From NCBI GenBank assembly GCA_021234155.1, contig JAJEKV010000001.1, positions 31,696,177 to 31,760,176 on the forward strand: 64,000 nt of DNA, given 5' to 3'. Source of the stretch: Isoetes taiwanensis (taxonomy: Eukaryota > Streptophyta > Lycopodiopsida > Isoetales > Isoetaceae). Position 1 is the stretch's first letter. The number at the start of each line of letters is the position of its first letter. This document shows positions 24,099-49,600 of the stretch, in pieces. A program made the translations under genes and the position numbers. The notes under the pieces are model-generated. The model saw only the letters and a list, made by a program, of their open reading frames with translations. It had not been told where the DNA came from and did no database searches.

Positions 24099-24946
24099 TA
24101 AGTTTGGAGCCTGTAAATATTTTGACAGCAATGAGAAAAGCATGTAATGCTGCCACTATTGTGGTATCACTTTAGGAAAAAGTAACGTCTCCTTGCATTT
24201 GAATATTAAAGTCCAAACTCTTCTACCGTTGTTTACCTAGGCAAAGTTAGAAGCCTTGATATAACCAAGTCATCGTTCCATGTGCACGCTTGTGGATCCA
24301 TGTTTTGTAATAGTGTATATCTAAATTTCCAAACGTTCACAAATGACCCAAATCTGGCATTCTACTCAATATAGAAAAGTGCCAGCTTTCGGTGGCCTTT
24401 CTCTTTTCTAATATAATTGTATGATAGCTCAAGATAAATCTTGTTGTTTGTCAAATTTGTAGTATAAAGCTTCACTTCTTGTTTTTTTTTTTTGCAATGT
24501 TTATACATGGAGCCAGTTTGGACCAGCTATAAAGTTGCTTCTACGTATAGATGCACGTCAATTGTGGTATAAAACTTCACATCTCTATTGTTGAATGTCT
24601 ACATGGAGTTAGTTTGGACCAACTATAAAATTGCTTCTATGTTATAGATGCATTTATGATGATGTTGTTAAAACAAATGATGCCAATCTTGCAAGGTCGC
24701 TTGATAACATTTTGGCTTGTGTTGAGATAGAGAAATTTGGAATATATATTTAGTATATTTGTGTGTGCACTCCATTACAACGTGCATTTCCTATTGTTGA
24801 CACATAGGAAAAAAAATTTGAGAATCAAATCATCCATTTTTTTTTCCAATATTAGCTTTTAATCTGTAATCAAAGCTTCTAGTATCCCCTTATTTGCTAA
24901 TTAATGAATTAGCGGTGTGTGATCAAATCTTCTAAAATCCCTTTTT

Positions 24947-24962
24947 TCATTCATTCATTCAA
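24947..24962. repeat. (TCAT)n run inside Helitron copy 1
   Basis: Short CATT/TCAT tetranucleotide run, also present in copy 2 near 40125-40136, so it predates the duplication. Confidence 0.7.
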
Positions 24963-25593
24963 TTGCTAATCAATAGATCGACAAGAATAGAAGTAAATTT
25001 GGGATATCCATTTTGCCTCTTAAATGGCTCTTATAACTTCCTATAAATCTAGATAAGCTCTTCTTATATAAGAATAACAAAAGCAGAATAGTGATGACCA
25101 TATCCATAGCCCACAATAGTTGCATATTGTATAGTAAAAGCCTGGAGACATTTTATTTAAATTTGTGACATCACGTTATATGGCGCAATTCTATTAGTGC
25201 TGGTCTTTACAATGTTTTCTACGTTCCTTGGTAAGACCATGCTTAGCATATCCCAATCATGGCGGATAGAAACCTCATTTAGCATATGACATGCAAATCC
25301 ATTAGTGCAGTCTTTACAATGACATGTATATTGAAGCCATGTCTAACAATATCCAGATATATCAAAATCAGCTTAGTCATAGATTCAAGCCTATTACACA
25401 CTTCAGGATCGTAATCCCAAGACTATGCACAAAGGTGGCATCCTATCTTACCTCCTGCATGCAAAAACCACCTTGATTATTTTGCTTCAATTTGAAGGTC
25501 ATTTTCTGTTATTTGAAAAAGAAAACCTCAGCAAAGTTATTAATAATTTAAATGTGCAAAGAACAGAAAAAGCAGCAATTCATCAAGAAAATG

Positions 25594-25776
25594 CTAACAA
25601 TTGGCACTCACCTCCAAAAGTCTTTGACAACAGTCATATGTCTTCCAATAATTTGATGCAACAAAGTTTTCCCTATATATCAAGAGGACTACATCAAGGA
25701 CCCCTATATATATTGTGTTTGTCCCATTCTTCTCCAGGTGGATGAAGCTCCAATCCCTGCATCTGCTGGTAAACAT
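25594..25776 (-). pseudogene. Possible captured exon inside Helitron copy 1
   Basis: The 60-codon minus-strand frame begins MFTSRCRDWSFIHLEKNG. In the genomic DNA a GTGAGT donor-like site follows near 25610 and CAG acceptor-like sites precede it. An alternative frame reads QQMQGLELHPPGEEWDKHN. Copy 2 keeps the same piece at 40776-40958. The donor gene is not identified. Helitrons often carry such fragments. Confidence 0.35.
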
Positions 25777-26562
25777 CTGCTGGGGTTTGTTCGTCCACTT
25801 ATGATAAATAGTTCTTTTAATGAACCTAAAATGAACACATCAGAAAATTTAGCACTGAATCTCTAAAATGTCATGCCTTGACGCCATTTATTTGCAGGAC
25901 ATGTAAGCATGACAGCAAATAAAAAAGTGCAGAAGACCGCCATTTGTACTTGCACAAATAAAAGCTAAGAATTATCAATAATAACTACCTAACAAATAGA
26001 GAATCTAGCATAATGTTGCAAATGTCGACAAACAGATTTGAGTTACCTTTAAGAGTCTTCAAAGGCTTCAAACAAATGAACGACAATATGCAGATAACTA
26101 ATCATGGGGCTTTAGAACATTAGTCTGAAACATTATATTTCTTCCTATGACACATCCATTTCTAATTTGGCATCTGCAATAGACACAGACTGTAAACCAC
26201 ATTATCTGGTTTCTAAAAATAAATAAAGAAGTTCATGTTTTTCAAGTTTACCCGCTATTCTTGGAGATATTTAAAAGCTTGCATTTAACGATCCGGTACT
26301 TCACATGTTCTTGATGATTCAAAGCCCAAACCGATTTGTTGCATGCCCCACCCATCCGCCATGAAGCAAACCTTACGCTAAAAAACTTTGTCGGGCATAG
26401 CCGAGCACGGGCATTTTCGACTTTTATTGTAAGGGGAAGTGACAATATCTTGGCGTTGTAAGATATTAAGCCTACAAAAAGCGAGTTGGCTTGTTGGAAA
26501 AATGGCATTGTAGGTCATAAAAAACTCCCTTGTTTGCATCGGAATCGAACTAACGATTAATC

Positions 26563-35440: not shown

Positions 35441-36099
35441 TGTGGACCGCCCGGTCTAGGGCTCGATGCACTACAGACTTACATTAAAACCTTATAATAT
35501 AAGACTAGTAATGGTGCCCAGCGTTGCTGGGCATAAGTTTGGAGCCTGTAAATATTTTGACAGCAATGAGAAAAGCATGTAATGCTGCCACTATTGTGGT
35601 ATCACTTTAGCAAAATGTAACGTCTCCTTGCATTTGAATATTGAAACCTAGGCAAAGTTAGAAGCCTTGATATAACCAAGTCATCGTTCCATGTGCACGC
35701 TTGTGGATGCATATTTTGTAATAGTGTATATCTAAATTTCCAAACGTTCACAATTGACCCAAATCTGGCATTCTACTCAATATAGAAAAGTGCCAGCTTT
35801 CGGTGGCCTTTCTCTTTTCTAATATAATTGTATGATAGCTCAAGGTAAATCTTGTTGTTTGTCAAATTTGTAGTATAAAGCTTCACTTCTTGTTTTTGGG
35901 TTGCCCCTAGGGGGGCACACCCTTGTTTATAAGGTTTGTGGCATATCCTAAGTATATGCTAGGATATACCTAGAATATGCTAGTTGCTCAAAACCTATTG
36001 TTGGCTGTAAATTAGCAATCATGTGCGTTCTGGATCCCCGATGTTCGAACCGGGTAACTGGCAGCAGGGCAGGCCCCCCTTGACCGCTCCTCTGGGCGC

Positions 36100-36860
36100 C
36101 TTCGGGCATACACTAATTTGTGCTTTCCCTTCATGTGTCTTGCACGATCCTTGCCTATTCTATGGATCTTTTCCTTCTGATACATCCAGCCATAGATTCG
36201 CCATCTCCAGAGCATTAGGAGGAGCCATCTTTTGGCTGGGTAGCAGAGTAATCCAGCAGGGATTGGGCTGCCATAGTTGAAGCTTTTACCAAGGATTCAG
36301 GGGAGGTGCAGCAAGGTTTTCATTCGTGGATTGTAGTTCTGGGCTGCTGGGACAGCCAGTGGCATTTGATGGAGGGGATTCAAGAGCTTCAAGATGATTT
36401 TTCCAAAAGAAAAGGGATTTAATCAGTTTTGGGCCTGGTTAGAAGGAGTTATGAGCTAAAACAGAGATATGGATAAAAGAGCTCTGATTGTTTCTCTAAA
36501 TGGAGAGCGAGGCATATCCATTGGCAATCCTAGTTTGCGCAGCAGCTTTAAACCTGAAAAAGGGACATAAGGACACCACTCCCAGATATGTATATGCAGG
36601 TACAATTTCCACAGGCGCCCCTTAAAGAAGAAGAAATTCTCCTTCCATCCAGGAGGTATTAAACAAAATCATCTTCGCTTTTTGCAGCTTGAACTATAGT
36701 TCCCTTTCTTTGCCTCTAAAGCTATCAAATCTTTCTGAAGGCCTTGAGGGAAAGAGGACATCAAAACTACATAATCAGCATAAAGATAAATTGGGATGCA
36801 TTCTTGTGCAAGCATGGATCCTTCTCCATCCAAGGTCTGCATGAGATGCAGATCCATATA
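36100..36860 (-). pseudogene. LINE reverse transcriptase fragment
   Basis: The minus strand reads CIPIYLYADYVVLMSSFPQG then LQKDLIALEAKKGN, the RT catalytic segment with YADY in place of YADD. After a stop it continues as YTYLGVV and RFKAAAQTRIANGYASL, the usual connection and thumb region. N-terminal RT and endonuclease are missing. It is a passenger or older insertion within the 9-bp-duplication element. Confidence 0.7.
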
Positions 36861-37039
36861 ACTTTGCTATTACATGGCCACTCATGATTAGCGGATAGTT
36901 TTCCATCTTTATGGACAGGTCCGATAACAAAATTAGACCATATCATGGGAGGCCAAGATATAATTGAGAGCTCATCAGTGTTCCAAGTTTAGATGAAGCA
37001 TATACAGTGTTCGGCAATTTAAGCAGTCGAGATGTAGTA

Positions 37040-37985
37040 TCATAGGGAGCAATAATTGCAGGATATGTTGGCCATGGGCATGGTGAAATTGCTTTAGAAC
37101 GTTCGAGAAGATGGAACAGGAAGCCATAGCTACCTATATGTGTCTCGAAAGCTTGCCGCTGCATGGAGTCTGCACAGCAAGGCAGGTTTGCACATAACAA
37201 GATCATTGAATGTGGACTGACAGTAAATTTTATGCTTGGGAACAGTCTCGTTGACATGTACGTCAAATGTGGATGCATAGATGAGGCACATAAAGTTTTT
37301 GACAAGTTGATCGTCCACGATGTGATAACATGGAGTGCACTGATTGATACGTTGTGTATGGTTTGGGTGCCATTGCTCTAGATTTGTTCGGGTGCATGCA
37401 CAAACGGGCATAAAGCCAGACAAAGTTAGATTTTTAAATCTTTTGAAGGGGTGCACTAGCACTGGGAACATAGCAAATGCATAATTATATTATTGATAGT
37501 AGTTTTGAATGGGATCTTGAACTTGGAAATATGCTTGTTGACATGCATACTAATTGTGGTGGTTTAGATGAGGCGGAACTTATGTTTTGCCAAGTAATAA
37601 TATGCAAACAGAAGGTTTGAAGCCAGAAAAAGCCTCGTGTTTGGGTGTTTTGAAAGCATGTGGTGATGTAGGAGCAAATACATATGTGACAAAATGTACA
37701 TAAACAATTTATTAAAAATCATTAAGAATTTGGTGTGGTTATATGCAATGCCCTTGTGTACACGTATGCCAAGTATGGAATCCTTCCAGAGGGACACAAA
37801 GTATTTGATAATATGCAAGAATGAGGCAATGAGAGAAACTATCTCAAATGATGCCACACGTTAAGCACTACAACTGCACGATTGACCTCAAAGATTGAAG
37901 ATAGAGAAATTGTAATAAATGATGCATACCAGGTTCATCATTTCAAGGATGGAATGTGTGCTGTAGGGATTATTATTGACTAGCT
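37040..37985 (+). pseudogene. DYW-type pentatricopeptide repeat (PPR) pseudogene
   Basis: PLS-class PPR-DYW proteins are organelle RNA-editing factors that read RNA one base per repeat and deaminate C to U. Recognisable repeats: GNSLVDMYVKCGCIDEA with HKVFDKLIVHDVITWSALI (37237-37350), then IKPDKVRFLNLLKGC, then GNMLVDMHTNCGGLDEA, then LKPEKASCLGVLKACGD, and NALVYTYAKYGILPEGHKVFD. The tail reads REIVINDA then VHHFKDGMC, the last part of a DYW deaminase domain; the terminal CxCxDYW is shifted out of frame (closest reading ends D-Y-Y). Stops and frame shifts are frequent, and only three or four repeats plus a DYW stub remain. Confidence 0.85.
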
Positions 37986-38089
37986 CAAATATTATTGAAA
38001 AACCAGAGTTTACAGTCAGAATACCATGCCTGAATACCATGCCTGGAAGTTCAATTGTCGTTGCTCTAGAAAGGGACAAATGGTATTCA

Positions 38090-39650
38090 AATCTGCAAAA
38101 GTAACGAATCTACATCGTAGAAGAAATGGAAGTTGCAGAGCAGTGAGTGCAAACAACTTTGGTACTGGAAAGTACTTTATATACCAGCACCAGCACTGCT
38201 GGTGGTGAGTGAAAACAACTTTGGTGCTGGTGGATTTTTACCGTTTTTGGAGCAAAATCTTGCCTACCTCATCTTCACGCTGCATCAATGCACGGGTGGC
38301 CCTGATGCAGGATTGGTTCGGCTGAGGTGATAGCCCAGAATCAGGGGCCAGACTCACGCTCAGAGTCCTGTATACAAAAGGCAGCTAATATTCCAAACGA
38401 CTTTCCACGAGGAACAGAACACTGTGAAGATTTTAGAACGATCATAACATATCAAATATGCAGAGCCTCAATGGTACCAATTTCCTGTTCACAGTATTTT
38501 CTTCAAATTCCATAAATTACTCAACAATTTAACGGCAACAAGCTTCATTGCGTCAAATACCAAACACCATTTAAACGGAATTAAGGCATAAGGCAAAGGA
38601 TGCTTCCCATATATTATAAATCATAAATACAAACATATATGGGTAAATTCTACAAGAAAATGCCTCAAGAAAGCTTAATATCTACCTTCTGCGACCAATT
38701 GGCACAGATAAATCATGTAAAGGCGCTACAATTCGAGGTAATCAACGTCAGAGCAACCAACCAAAGCCCGGTCAATTCTATTCACACAGTTGCGGCTCAT
38801 TGTACCCTTAGTATAATTGAAGTATTGGTATTGATGCCATTGAATGCCTGCTTGAGGATTGGATATATGAAGTGGATGCTAGTCTTTTCGACATATGTCA
38901 GACTCAAATAATATTCTAGAATATGTTCCCAAACAGAATATGACACTGGTCCATTCCGGTCCTGCAAGTAATGGTTACAAGCTTTTTTATGGGATTCAAT
39001 TCATGATCTTGGATTCTCTAATGAGTATTGTTGCATTCATGGGGAAGACTACCGTGGCTATCACAGGTTTCAAAAATTTGGGGCCAGGTGTACTTGCTCA
39101 TTCAGCCTCAGACATCATAGATGGCATGAATCCTGATGCGAAGAAGATAAAGAAGGCACTGAAGGCACTTTGTTATCATGACAAAATGCACGTTTAAGCT
39201 CAACCACGGACTCCAAATCATTGCCTTCGATAGGGCCTAGGCTCAGAACCCGACCTATAACATGCCATTGCATTTTTAAGTAGCTCTACCTTGCTTGCAA
39301 CTTCCATGTACTTCATGCTATTAAATTCTTAGCAACCTTCTTCAATTTATAAAATCGAGTTCTTCCTTCATACCCTGAACAAAATTGACATGCAAAACAA
39401 TCCTAAGTTCCTAAGTTCTTTTGCACACACCCCCGTTTCTTCTTATTTCTCTATTTGCATTCTTCATACATTGTTTCAGATGTTTCTAAGGATCCGGATT
39501 TATCCACTATCTAAAAATTCCCATAAAGACATGGTATCAAGTATTCTATATTTTGAAGTAGCAATTTGAATTAATTGTCAAAACATGACTTTGAACTATG
39601 ATTTAAGCCACTTCACCCTCCGGCCATAGAGGGCAACCCTCCGTGCGCAG
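38090..39650. other. Unassigned right half of the Pack-MULE-like insertion
   Basis: Short plus-strand frames (38639-38911, 38895-39197) show no recognised domain. A local repeat of ACAACTTTGGT(A/G)CTGG occurs at about 38152 and 38216, with AGCACCAGCACTGCTGG between. Confidence 0.4.
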
Positions 39651-40775
39651 CACCTTGTTTTTTTTTGCAATGTTTATACATGGAGCCAGTTTGGACCAGC
39701 TATAAAGTTGCTTCTACGTATAGATGCACGTCAATTGTGGTATAAAACTTCACATCTCTATTGTTGAATGTCTACATGGAGTTAGTTTGGATCAACTATA
39801 AAATTGCTTCTACGTTATAGATGCATTTATGATGATGTTGTTAAAACAAATGATGCCAATCTTGCAAGGTCGCTTGATAACATTTTGGCTTGTGTTGAGA
39901 TAGAGAAATTTGGAATATATATTTAGTATATTTGTCTGTGCACTCCATTACAACGTGCATTTCCTATTGTTGACATATAGGAAAAAAAATTTGAGAATCA
40001 AATCATCCATTTTTTTTCCAATATTGTATAGCTTTTAATCTGTAATCAAAGCTTCTAGTATCCCCTTATTTGCTAATTACTGGATTAGCAGGTGTGATCA
40101 AATCTTCTAAAATCCCCTTTTTCATTCATTCATTCAATTGCTAATCAATAGATCAGCAAGAATAGAAGTAGGCTGGGATATCCATTTTGCCTCTTAAATG
40201 GCTCTTATAACTTCCTATAAATCTAGATAAGCTCTTCTTATATAAGAATAACAAAGAAACAGAACAGTGATGACCGTTATCCCATAGCCCACAACAGTTG
40301 CATAGTGTATAGTAAGGACAGACATTTTATTTAAATTTGTGACATCCTGTTATATGACTGCAATTCTATTAGTGCAGTCTTTACAATGACATTCTGTTCC
40401 TTGGTAAGACCATGCTTAGCATATCCTGCAATCATGGCAGATAGAAACCTCATTTAGCATATGACATGCAAATCCATTAGTGCAGTCTTTACAATGACAT
40501 GTATATTGAAGCCATGTCTAACAATATCCAGATATATCAAAATCCGCTTAGTCATAGATTCAAGCCTATTACACACTTCAGGATCGTAATCCCAAGACTA
40601 TGCACAAAGGTGGCATCCTATCTTATCTCCTGCATGCAAAAACCACCTTGATTATTTTGCTTCAATTTGAAGGTCATTTTCTGTTATTTGAAAAAGAAAA
40701 CCTCAGCAAAGTTATTAATAATTTAAATGTGCAAAGAACAGAAAAAGGTTGCCATAGCAATTCATCAAGAAAATG

Positions 40776-40958
40776 CTAACAATTGGCACTCACCTCCAAA
40801 AGTCTTTGACAACAGTCATATGTCTTCCGATTATTTGATGCAACAAAGTTTTCCCTATATATCAAGAGGACTACATCAAGGACCCCCACATATATTGTGT
40901 TTGTCCCATTCTTCTCCAGGTGGATGAAGCTCCAATCCCTGCATCTGCTGGTAAACAT
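40776..40958 (-). pseudogene. Possible captured exon inside Helitron copy 2
   Basis: Counterpart of the frame at 25594-25776, differing at a few residues. Retention in both copies shows it was present before the dimer formed. Confidence 0.3.
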
Positions 40959-41155
40959 CTGCGGGGGTTTGTTCGTCCACTTATGATAAATAGTTCTTTT
41001 AATGAACCTAAAATGAACACATCAGAAAATTTAGCACTGAATCTCTAAAATGTCATGCCTTGTCGCCATTTATTTGCAGGACATGTAAGCATGACAGCAA
41101 ATAAAAAAAGTGCAGAAGACCACCATTTGTACTTGCACAAATAAAAGCTAAGAAT

Positions 41156-42187
41156 TCTAGAATGGGACTCGCAAGAAACCAACAAACCGCATAGATAGGC
41201 TTCTCATTCATCTCAGCAGATTTTCTACAATGGGATATAAGGTAGCGACACATGCGAACTACCCATGAAAAATAAAGGGAAAATCCAATTATATCATTTG
41301 GACCCCAAAACAAATACAATGCTAATAGATGAGTGGTTGATGTACCGCCGAAAGCTTATCACCGGGATTAAAAACCCGCCCTTTCGGTTTTCGAGGAAAA
41401 CCCTAGTGATAAGCCTTGACAAGGGGGGCTTAGACAAACGTAAAGGCCTAGAATCGCCCCAAAACCCCCATGGAGAAGTCGAAATGGATGCCGCCGCCAA
41501 CCCGTACCGCACATCACCAACACAACAAACGAAACATACCAGAGAATAGCATCACCCAAATGGTGGAAAAGCATCACCCAAATGGTGGAAAAACATGATA
41601 AAATGTAACTTGTACAAAATATAATAAACAAAGAAGGGGAGGGTGGGTTCAAAGAGAATAAGGTATCTGGCTGAGAGAAGAGGAAGCTAGATGAGACGTG
41701 GATGCGTAAACGCTACCAAATAGCGAACTCCCAACCCAAAACGGGCATGCGCCGCCTGCATGCATGCATGACATGCATGCTCGTCCCATTTTAGAATGGC
41801 GATCCGATGTCTCTTCTGATCGATGCGATTCTAGAATGGGACTCGCAAGAAACCAACAAACCGCCCGACTACCAGAGAACTTCCTTACAAACTAGGATCG
41901 AGGACGAAGGTCACAGGACGAGGCCAAAGGCCGGTAAAGGATAGCAAGAAAGATACGCCAAAGTGGCTAAACCAGGCAGGAAGAAGCCCCTCCCCTGCCT
42001 GGGAACAATTCAAAGAGAATAAGGTACTGCTGAGAGAAGAGGAAGCGCCGATGAGACGTGGATGCAGAAACGCGCCTGAAATAGCGAACTCCCAACCCAA
42101 AACGGGCATGCGCCGCCCGCATGCATGCATGACATGCATGCTCGTCCCATTCTAGAATGGCGATCCGATGTCTCGGATCGATGCGAT
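41156..42187. mobile_element. Helentron-like (HINE-type) array, two tandem units, inside Helitron copy 2
   Basis: Copy 1 has the empty site (AAGAAT|TATCAA, about 25981). The insertion begins TCTAGAATGGGACTC and ends ATCGATGCGAT, consistent with insertion between two Ts (or, equivalently, a 3-bp ATT duplication). The 5' terminal ATTCTAGAATGGGAC has its inverted copy GTCCCATTCTAGAAT about 40 bases from the 3' end, upstream of an 8-bp hairpin CGATCCGA-TGTC-TCGGATCG: asymmetric terminal repeats plus a 3' hairpin, as described for Helentron/Helitron2 elements. Units: 41154-41827 (long) and 41828-42187 (short). No protein is encoded. Confidence 0.7.
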
Positions 42188-42906
42188 TATCAATAATAAC
42201 TACCTAACAAATAGAGAATCTAGCATAATGTTGCAAATGTCCACAAACAGATTTGAGTTACCTTTAAGAGTCTTCAAAGGCTTCAAACAAATGAACGACA
42301 ATATGCAGATAACTAATCATGGGGCTTTAGAACATTAGTCTAAAACATTATATTTCTTCCTATGACTTATCCATTTCTAATTTGGCATCTGCAATAGACA
42401 CAGACTGTAAACCACATTATACCGTTTCTAAAAATAAATAAAAAAGTTCATGTTTTCAAGTTTACCTGTTACCGGGGATATTTAAAAGCTTGCATTTAAC
42501 CGATCTGGTACTTCACATGTTGCAGTGATTCAAAGCCCAAACCGATTTGTTGCATGCCCCACCCATCCGCCATGAAGCAGGCCTTCTGCTAAAAAACTTT
42601 GTCAGGCATAGCCGAGCCTGAGCATTTTCCAGCTTTTATTGTAAGGGGAAGTGACAATATCTTGGCCGTTGTAAGATATTAAGCCTACAAAAACAGAGTT
42701 GGCTTGTTGGAAAAAATGGCATTGTAGGTCATAAAAACTCCCTTGCTGCATCTGGAATCGAAACTAACAATGTCAGAACGGATCCAAACCTTAAAAGCAT
42801 AGCCAAACCATGGTTTTTGGAAAAAATCCTTATTGTCTTGAGTTTTCTAGCTTTCTGGCTTTCATAGAGATTTCTGGCTTCTGGCTATGGCGGAGCGCCC
42901 CATCCT

Positions 42907-43095
42907 CTACCAGCACCCTTCTTCTCCTGCCGTCGGATTTAGGGCTTCAAATCCAAACCCACAGAGTTCATAAAGATTCCTAAACCAGCTTCTGATCTGA
43001 TAGCCATAGTTGAGCACCAGGAATTCGATCCGGAGGTAAAAAAATACCTTAAGCCCTTTTTTGAACTTATCTCTGTCGTTCAAAGAGTCAATCAA
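42907..43095 (-). pseudogene. Conserved short frame near Helitron 5' end, copy 2
   Basis: Counterpart of 35252-35440 with only a few residue changes. Product unknown. Confidence 0.3.
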
Positions 43096-43159
43096 TGTGG
43101 ACCGCCCGATCTAGGGCTCGATGCACTACAGACTTACATTAAAACCTTATAATAGAAGA

Positions 43160-46625: not shown

Positions 46626-49600
46626 GTTATGGTAAGACTTTGGTTTAAGACCTCAAGAGCGACTCTGCAATTCGATTACAACATGAAAAGGTACTGTCTT
46701 TGCTTGAGCTATTGTTTCTTGAAAAATGTTGCATTGTTTCCCTATCTGTGGCCATAATTCTGGATTGATTAACTAGAGAGACAAACCATGGTTTGCTACC
46801 ATTTCGTTTGGGTGCTTAAAAGGCCCCCCTGATTCCTCTATTTAAAGTATAAAATGTTGATTGAACGAGGTGCACAACTTGAACAGCGCCAAAATAGCTT
46901 TAGGGGCATAGCTCTGTCTAAATCTGTACGATCTTTTGTATTTGTACTTTTTCTGTTTGGTATCTATTGCCCATGTAATATCCATTTGTTCCTGTACACT
47001 AGATTGTTTATTTGTTCCTGCATGCTGAATTGTTTATTTGGCAGGAAAGGTGTATGCATGTATGTTTCGTTAAATAGGCATAGGCATAGCTAGGTTCCAA
47101 ATCCTTACAAACCAATGTGGATCGAGTTTTTAACTGTCGTAAAAAACATTTTGTTTTTGTAGACTTATAGATGAAGGACATTCACGTAAAATTTATCCAT
47201 AGTAGCTCCTGGATAACTAATATTAAATGGCATCACTGGCCCACATAACATTATGCAATTTCACTATTGCTGGGTGCAATAAAAGAGAGGCAAAAGTGGT
47301 ATGCACAAAAGAAAAGGAAAAAACAGATGCCAAGGCTACCATAAACCCTATCTCAATCCTGCATAAAATGCATCTACACACAAAATTTGACTACGGAAAA
47401 AATTAGAGATGCATATATAAGTGATTCTAGAATGGGACTCGCATGAAACCAACAAACCGCCCGATAGATAGGCTTCTCATTCATCTCATCAGATTTTCTA
47501 CAATGGTGGATAGTGGGTAGCCGCACACATGCAAACTACCCACGAAAATAAAGGGAAAATCCAATTATATCATTTGGACCCCAAAAATACAATGCTAACA
47601 GATGTTCGGCTGGTGTACCTGCCGAAAGCTTATCACCGGGATTAAAAAACCCCGCCCTTTCGGGTTTTCGAGGAAAAACCCTAGTGATAAACCTTCGGCA
47701 AGGGGCTTAGACAAACGCAAGGCAGAGAAATCGCTCCCAAAACCCACGAATGGAGAAGTCGAAACAAATGCCGCTCGCCAACCTGTACCTGCACATCACC
47801 AACACCACAAAAACAAAACAAAACAAACCTCCCAGAGTGGAGGGGCTGATTACGCGCGTGCCACGTGACAAATATAATAAACAAAGAAGGGGGGGGGTGG
47901 GTTCAACGAGAAAGAGGTACTGGCGAGAGAGAAGAGGAAGCTACCGATGAGGAGTCGATGCAAACGCCGCCTAAAATAGCTTAACTCCCAACCGTAATGG
48001 GCATGCCCCGCCGCATGCATGCAAAACATGATGCTCGTCCCATTCTAGAATGGCGATCCGATGTCTCTGGATCGATGGGATTCTAGAATGGGACTCGTGA
48101 TGAAACCAACAAACCGCCCGAATACCAAAGGACTTCCTTACAAACTAGGATCGAGGGCGAAGGTCACAGGATCTAAGGTTAAGGGCGAAAAAAGACACAG
48201 ATAAAAGAAACACCAAATTGGCCAAACCAGGCAGGGAGAAGCCCCTCCCCTGCCTGGAAACAATTCAACGAGAAAGAGGTACTGCTGAGAGAGAAGAGGA
48301 AGCGCCGATGAGGAGTCGATGCAGAAACGCGCCTAAAATAGCGAACTCCCAACCAGAATGGGCATGCGCCGCCCGCGATGCATGCAAAATATGCATCTGC
48401 CCCATTCTAGAATGGCGATCCGATGTCTCTGATCGATGGGATTCTAGAATGGGACTCGCTTGAAACCAACAAACCGCCCGAATACCAAAGGACTTCCTTA
48501 CAAACTAGGATCGAGGGACGAAGGTCACGGACGGCTAAAGGCTGAAAAAGGACAAAGATAAAAGAAACGCCAATTAGCCAAACCAAAGGAGAAGCCCCTC
48601 CCCTGCCTGGAAACAATTCAACGAGAAAGAGGTACTGCTGAGAGAGAAGAGGAAGCGCCGATGAGGAGTCGATGCAGAAACGCGCCTAAAATAGCGAACT
48701 CCCAACCAGAATGGGCATGCGCCGCCCGCATGCATGCAAAACATGCATGCTCGTCCCATTCTAGAATGGCGATCCGATGTCTCGGATCGATGGGATTTTT
48801 AAAGGCCTTTTAACGTCAGAAATTACTTGTCAAGTTTTCACATGTCGTAGCCCATTTCTTTATTAACTTCAATGTTCATATCCAAATTTATACCTAAGCC
48901 ATGATCTTTAACATTGTTACAATGGAGTCGTTTACAGAATGTGTGAAACGCAGTAGGTTTTATTGTATTTCAAGAATTTTTGAAGAGGTAGTTTTTGCAT
49001 ATAAAACATTATAACCATGTCTCAACTTGAATATCCTTGTTTTATTTTACCAGGATGGTTCTACTTTAACATCTTGCTAAATTGAGTAGCCAGACACTCT
49101 AATTTCCAGCAGAACCTTGGTGAGAATTTGAATCTTAACTCTCCAGTTATTTTATGCCTTATATATTACTAAAAAGGATCTCTGCTCTTTGTTCTTTCCC
49201 TGACAATTATACCTTGGCATTTATGTGATTATAATTCATGGCAATGCCACTGATATTTTAGAGAAGGTCACTCCCTTTTTAACAAGTTTTGCCTCTGGGA
49301 TTCTCCCTCTGAAGTGTGTTTTCTTCTTTCTTATCTTTGCAGAAGTGTTTCAGGAGGCCACCAATTGATGAGACTTCCCCTATAGTTGCTCGCATTTTTG
49401 CACAATGCCCGAGCTCAATATTAACAAAGTATAAAGAATCCGCATGTCGAAATCTGACAACTGACGGAGAAGTCATAGGAACTTGTGAGTCATTTGGATT
49501 TTGTAGGCTTACAACCTTGTATTATATTTTTCTTGTTAACTATAATTTGAATCACAGTGAACACATCTCTTCAATCACTTCGCGCTCATATTTTACAAGG

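Follow-up and report, generated by a model that had tools for sequence, protein, structure and literature searches.

Element Q of Isoetes taiwanensis, a probable non-autonomous rolling-circle transposon with Helitron2-like ends and an A|T target

The window, i.e., the whole 64,000-nucleotide stretch of Isoetes taiwanensis DNA that was analysed, contains a canonical Helitron that carries both a Helentron/Helitron2-type insertion and the subject of this report, here termed element Q. The features referred to below are as follows, with a vertical bar marking a junction.

35505-43159, minus strand: canonical Helitron that hosts Q, A|TC at 43159 and CTAG-3' at 35505
35898-39657, plus strand: insertion of Helentron/Helitron2 type into this host, 5' GGGTTGCCCC..., 3' GGGCAACCC plus a short hairpin plus CTTG, in a T tract
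41155-42186, plus strand: complete copy of element Q, 1,032 bp, 5'-TTCTAGAATGG...GATGCGA-3', inserted at A|T without duplicating the target
41155-41828, plus strand: Q unit A, ending at the head-to-tail junction GCGA|TTCTAG
41829-42186, plus strand: Q unit B, which has ~37-41 bp of the 5' end and ~185 bp of the 3' end in common with unit A
41155-41167, plus strand: Q 5' inverted repeat TTCTAGAATGGGA, holding the palindrome TTCTAGAA
42145-42158, minus strand: inverted copy of the Q 5' repeat, its end 28 nt inward of the Q 3' end
42161-42180, plus strand: Q 3' hairpin, with an 8-bp stem, a loop reading TGTC and 6 nt between it and the 3' end
25962-25985, plus strand: unoccupied Q site in the paralogous copy of the Helitron, from window self-alignment
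47425-48795, plus strand: second Q copy of three units, A 47425-48080, B 48081-48441 and B 48442-48795

By self-alignment of the window, positions 24827-25973 matched 40000-41156 and positions 25971-26557 matched 42186-42771, i.e., the two flanks of Q, which confines the insertion to one Helitron copy. The repeat that Q interrupts is unbroken at 24482-26554 and reads AAGAATTATCAA at the uninterrupted, pre-insertion site, bearing out the insertion and empty site claimed in a preliminary description of this DNA. Of the further claim that one type of Helitron lies inside another, the host part is borne out: Q is within a minus-strand canonical Helitron (5'-TC at 43159, CTAG-3' at 35505). The limits proposed there, 41156-42187, are one of four placements of the ends that are equivalent at the window locus alone, but only 41155-42186 agrees with the empty sites found for other copies. 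The make-up of Q from two units joined head to tail was absent from that description.

The first 13 bases of Q, TTCTAGAATGGGA, recur in inverted form, matching at 13 of 13 positions, within its last 70 bases; none of 20,000 single-base shuffles equalled this. This inverted copy is followed by a gap of 2 nt, the 3' hairpin (CGATCCGA-TGTC-TCGGATCG) and ATGCGA-3'. The last 60 bases folded with a z of -3.87, beating all 200 shuffles, and a similar result was obtained for the 3' end of the second window copy (z -3.46; 0 of 200 shuffles as good). Both the inward-displaced inverted repeat, here measured at 13 bp, and the hairpin at 42161-42180 had been described previously and are present. A hairpin was not found at the 5' end of Q (z 0.57), where the repeat is palindromic in itself (TTCTAGAA).

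Q is a high-copy family with at least hundreds of copies in the genome (1.66 Gb). A first look yielded 4,642 candidates, the best 40 of which were scored, with 44 matching pieces listed, 35 of them longer than 1 kb. A 5' pattern with 25 fixed bases matched 629 sites, in which outer ends and inner junctions are mixed; the first 100 listed comprised 57 outer ends and 43 inner junctions with the sequence GA|TTCTAG. A second pattern, for 3' ends and with 23 bases fixed, was designed to skip inner junctions, thereby also dropping outer ends with T at the last place, and matched 1,042 sites. The termini of Q copies read TT...GCGA or TT...GGGA. At one locus (L034, C453:91000-94000), Q units in both orientations are nested in another Q element.

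The flanks of ten Q copies, mostly picked for unusual flanks, were joined, and the best 40 candidates were scored. Uninterrupted paralogous sites were recovered for seven of the ten copies, and no empty site was recovered for L011, L017 or L020 among these candidates. All 18 empty sites fetched for the seven copies crossed the junction without a base gained or lost, and two further loci were concordant, i.e., the empty site in the window and L010 when compared with L029. The sole placement that fits all 18 is 5'-TTCTAG...G(C/G)GA-3', which assigns both T to Q itself and makes the target A|T, with a following T favoured. Individual empty sites read A|T in L014 and L052, A|A in L038, L043, L049 and L050, and C|T in L002. 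The target of Q is mostly A|T, and exceptionally A|A or C|T.

The ends themselves gave concordant counts. TT preceded CTAG in all 57 outer 5' ends, and A preceded the TT in 54, in a set that retains two flank sequences occurring twice and one possible damaged inner junction. Among the first 100 3' ends listed, all kept although two resemble indel-bearing inner junctions and another two are off register by one base, the base preceding the junction was A in 99 and the base following it was T in 89, with TT following in 63 and a near-constant GA closing the element. The 36 outer copies that were fetched, partly for their unusual right flanks, had TT in 33, a preceding A in 33 and a T after the element in 30. 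The copies without the 5' TT were L017 (TG), L042 (AT) and L051 (TA); L017 has ATGCTAG on both sides and TG rather than TT at its left end, a possible insertion via a CTAG match. The T|T target put forward in the preliminary description had to be abandoned: both T are Q's own 5' terminus (57/57 outer ends; 33/36 fetched copies), and the 18 empty sites of seven copies give A|T, A|A or C|T.

These data also bear on whether Q might be a terminal-inverted-repeat DNA transposon with 3-bp ATT duplications, which we consider extremely improbable. ATT does flank both sides of the window copy and of the second window copy, but the two sides are unequal in L002, L007, L014, L016, L020 and others, and the inverted repeats of Q are not placed at both termini. 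A 3-bp ATT target duplication was rejected on these unequal flanks and on the duplication-free empty sites. Neither the fixed-length target-site duplication (TSD) nor the symmetrical terminal inverted repeats of a DDE transposon were found. The Replitron pattern of short direct terminal repeats with a 2-8 bp TSD (PMC10741241, accessible text) does not apply to Q, as it has no TSD.

Two samples were used to characterize the composite structure. All 20 Q copies selected by dimer similarity, a selection that itself favours the two-unit form, were A+B. Among 20 copies selected by their 3' ends, a non-random sample of the 100 listed that was chosen partly for unusual right flanks and includes two copies with no detected 5' end (L037 and L053), 15 were A+B, four A only and one B only. 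The solo A copies did not fall into a single group in a tree of 54 A units, a pattern that bootstrapping left unsettled. In three of the four solo A copies, the score against the 3' ends of unit A exceeded that against those of unit B (255/241, 252/225 and 205/184), indicating that the 3' end of unit A can itself act as an end; empty sites were recovered for both L038 and L052, which are solo A copies. The solo A copy L053 scored 283 against unit-A and 298 against unit-B 3' ends, and looks like the product of recombination between the two 3' repeats, another route to solo A.

Broken internal hairpins were considered as the cause of the composites. The inner-junction hairpins of the two window copies, which are disrupted in 3/3 cases, hinted at such an effect, but it was countered by the intact internal hairpins of 18/20 copies in L001-L020, a figure identical to that at the outer 3' ends (full-length rows only, with short opposite-strand read-outs (CGCATCGATCCGA) excluded). 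The composite A+B is usually the form in which Q is found, and broken internal hairpins do not account for its predominance.

Precise insertion with neither duplication nor loss, asymmetric ends, a mostly A|T target and exact head-to-tail units together lead us to read Q as, very probably, a non-autonomous rolling-circle (Helitron-superfamily) transposon of Helitron2-like build with an A|T target. Precise insertion free of target-site duplication is the behaviour of that superfamily. A Rep/helicase supplied in trans would nick at the 5' TT, and one strand of Q would be peeled off until a stop at the 3' hairpin. Use of the first 3' end, i.e., that of unit A, would give a solo A product, and passing over it would give the A+B composite. 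As no autonomous element with the ends of Q was found in the regions and listed matches covered by the search described below, the enzyme that moves it is one that we infer.

The host Helitron offers a second insertion for comparison. The element at 35898-39657 is flanked by 5 T on the left and 9 T on the right, and a paralogous copy has an unbroken run of 12 T at 24482. Its 5' GGGTTGCCCC pairs with the bases that follow, and is found inverted as GGGCAACCC right before a 4-bp 3' hairpin ending in CTTG. Since its folds were only moderately above shuffles (5' z -1.67, 11/200 as good; 3' z -0.63, 40/200), the case for this element rests on matching ends elsewhere. Exact 5' ends of this type numbered 1,894 and exact 3' ends 953; of the first 100 listed in each case, 93 of the 5' ends were preceded by TTTTT and 99 of the 3' ends were followed by TT (both scored by eye). 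No frame of at least 170 residues was found in it, and its build is that published for Helitron2 (PMC3627910, accessible text). The presence of Q and this T-tract insertion in one host Helitron allows a direct comparison of target choice. At 35504/35505, the host Helitron reads CTAG|TC, an exact head-to-tail join with the 5' end of another canonical Helitron.

A partial genome search, covering 15 Rep-bearing regions and the pattern matches listed, found no autonomous element with the ends of Q, endonuclease-bearing or other. Patterns for 5' ends with a different interior, using two exclusion patterns, gave 208 and 431 matches, and those for 3' ends with a different interior gave 159, the first 100 being listed in each case. 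All 14 loci fetched from the pattern lists matched units A and/or B; three loci from the second exclusion list were one tandem, one apparent chance match and one diverged 3' end. The Rep regions comprised four from the PF14214 list (L076-L079, with Pfam run on L077-L079) and eleven DUF6570 regions (L080, L081, L096-L102, L108 and L109, with Pfam run on all but the last two). No Q ends were present in these 15 regions, in all of which the 5' motif was sought and in all but L108 and L109 the hairpin; at a length of 7-10 kb each, Q ends farther out would escape. An autonomous Q element may exist.

The genome encodes autonomous Helentron/Helitron2-type elements with DUF6570, Rep and PIF1 helicase domains, to which two families add an endonuclease. 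Pfam DUF6570 (PF20209) had 24 genome matches, and the DNA around 12 of these was read in the eleven regions. Helitron_like_N scored 55-69 bits in L080, L081, L096, L099 and L101, with a 27-bit fragment in L100, versus 179-216 bits for the 150 Rep domains scored among 1,813 candidates; of the L097 and L098 frames that were tried, none matched a Rep domain. The two families, L096/L099/L101/L102 and L080/L097/L100, show ~90-98% identity within each over kilobases. PIF1 helicase was detected in L099 and L101 of the first and in L080, L097 and L100 of the second. The Exo_endo_phos endonuclease was above the Pfam cut-off in L096, L097, L100 and L101, just below it in L102 and a weak fragment in L099. 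L101 is the sole copy in which a full-length Rep match occurs together with helicase and endonuclease. The two families are colinear and ~44-45% alike across the endonuclease region, which argues against a chance LINE neighbour. The ends of these families were read from separate copies, never both in one: a Helentron-type 3' end in L100 and a 5' end in L080 lie opposite to the genes, and the 3' end in L102/L105, with one base changed, runs in the same direction as the genes.

A third family, represented by L081, is a Helitron2-like coding element whose two ends, both with hairpins (5' z -3.14, 3' z -1.72), lie 12.3 kb apart, a span taken from one copy only (L107:2683 to L081:7788, C1035). This element has T on both sides and encodes Rep and helicase; an endonuclease was not detected in the frames tried. 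TT followed the 3' end in 8/8 copies read, two of which have a common flank, and other long copies are 93-97% identical. The stretch L081:8089-8361, which is repeated at many places in the genome, has a weak match to Replitron_HUH (PF21859; 24.5 bits, below the cut-off of 28.5). Adjoining L081 is a PPR gene with an E motif, in keeping with a land-plant genome; PPR E motifs mark land plants.

Two variants of the rolling-circle reading differ in the enzyme. Whether these endonuclease-bearing Helentrons mobilise Q, making it a Helentron-associated element (HINE) proper, is in our view doubtful. The architecture of inverted repeat plus 3' hairpin is alike, and DUF6570-Rep-PIF1-endonuclease elements are at hand in the genome, but Q inserts at A|T, in contrast to the T-rich flanks of the genome's Helentron-type ends, and the end sequences differ. 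Moreover, the Q 5' motif was not found in the 11 DUF6570 regions read, and the near matches, i.e., TTCTAGAATTG in L081, the palindrome TTCTAGAATGTAA in L099 and one 25-base interior match also in L099, come with no matching hairpin. We tentatively entertain, as a possibility short of an even chance, that Q is moved by the Rep/helicase of a canonical plant Helitron (Helitron1), its Helentron-like ends being convergent or captured. Such Rep domains are present in the genome, the 150 scored of 1,813 candidates having the 179-216 bits given above, and Q has the A|T target, 5'-T and 3' hairpin in common with Helitron1. It lacks 5'-TC and CTRR-3', however, and 6 nt, not 10-12, separate its hairpin from the end; a displaced inverted repeat is atypical of Helitron1, and no Q ends occur in the four regions around such Rep domains (L076-L079). 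We would also be hesitant to regard Q as a separate plant rolling-circle lineage, in which asymmetric repeats of Helitron2 type go with the A|T target of Helitrons under a putative Rep of its own, with a composite unit whose two working 3' ends are used alternatively.

Taken as the rolling-circle transposon that we favour, Q is a variant of known elements, with Helitron2-like ends and the A|T target of Helitrons. Ends and target are usually taken jointly to sort Helitron1 from Helitron2/Helentron, and Q separates them: by its build it is closest to Helitron2/Helentron, and by its target it resembles a canonical Helitron. The Helentron-type interpretation of the preliminary description was borne out in part: the lack of a TSD, the asymmetric inverted repeats, the 3' hairpin and the lack of TC...CTRR support it, whereas the T|T target did not stand. 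To name Q a Helentron is unjustified, since a TT target was looked for and not found and no partner was identified among the regions and listed matches covered. A literature search, mostly of papers outside subscription, returned no title on a land-plant Helentron/Helitron2 among the matches listed. The paper on the HELIANO method is said to separate the two kinds of element. According to PMC4067079 (accessible text), most plant genomes had yielded no identified Helentron, which makes the autonomous Helentron-type elements of this genome notable.

Compared with canonical Helitrons (Helitron1), Q has the same A|T target, absence of TSD and 3' hairpin, but has inverted repeats in place of TC...CTRR. 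According to the accessible text of PMC3627910, Helitron2 of the Chlamydomonas Helitron-1_CRe group shares the 5'-T with Q, and Helitron-1N1_CRe is also without TSD; these elements, however, insert after TTTT, with TSDs in CRe-1, 2 and 3, unlike Q at A|T, and have a 5' hairpin, whereas Q has none and no protein was seen in it. Helentrons and HINE/DINE-1, in the part of PMC4067079 available, resemble Q in being high-copy elements that leave the target unmodified, with a palindrome at the 3' end and, close to the 5' end, palindromic subterminal repeats of 12-15 bp. They differ in the TT target with boundary T strings, in the distance from 3' repeat to end (~38-60 bp versus 28 nt in Q) and in the endonuclease partner of Helentron, none having been found for Q in the partial search. 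FoHeli1/2 of Fusarium (PMC5148889, accessible text) resemble Q in their asymmetric repeats ~20-40 bp from the 3' end, in their target, TNAT followed by A, and in their 5' end, for which the choice between TC and TTC was left undecided there, but include autonomous members and have hairpins at both ends and other sequences. Finally, proto-Helentron-Pi of Phytophthora, as far as the accessible text of PMC4067079 describes it, is a coding element of ~14 kb with a 3' CTAG and Helitron-like structure, unlike Q, but shares with it the 5'-TT, insertion between A and T, and the absence of a TSD.
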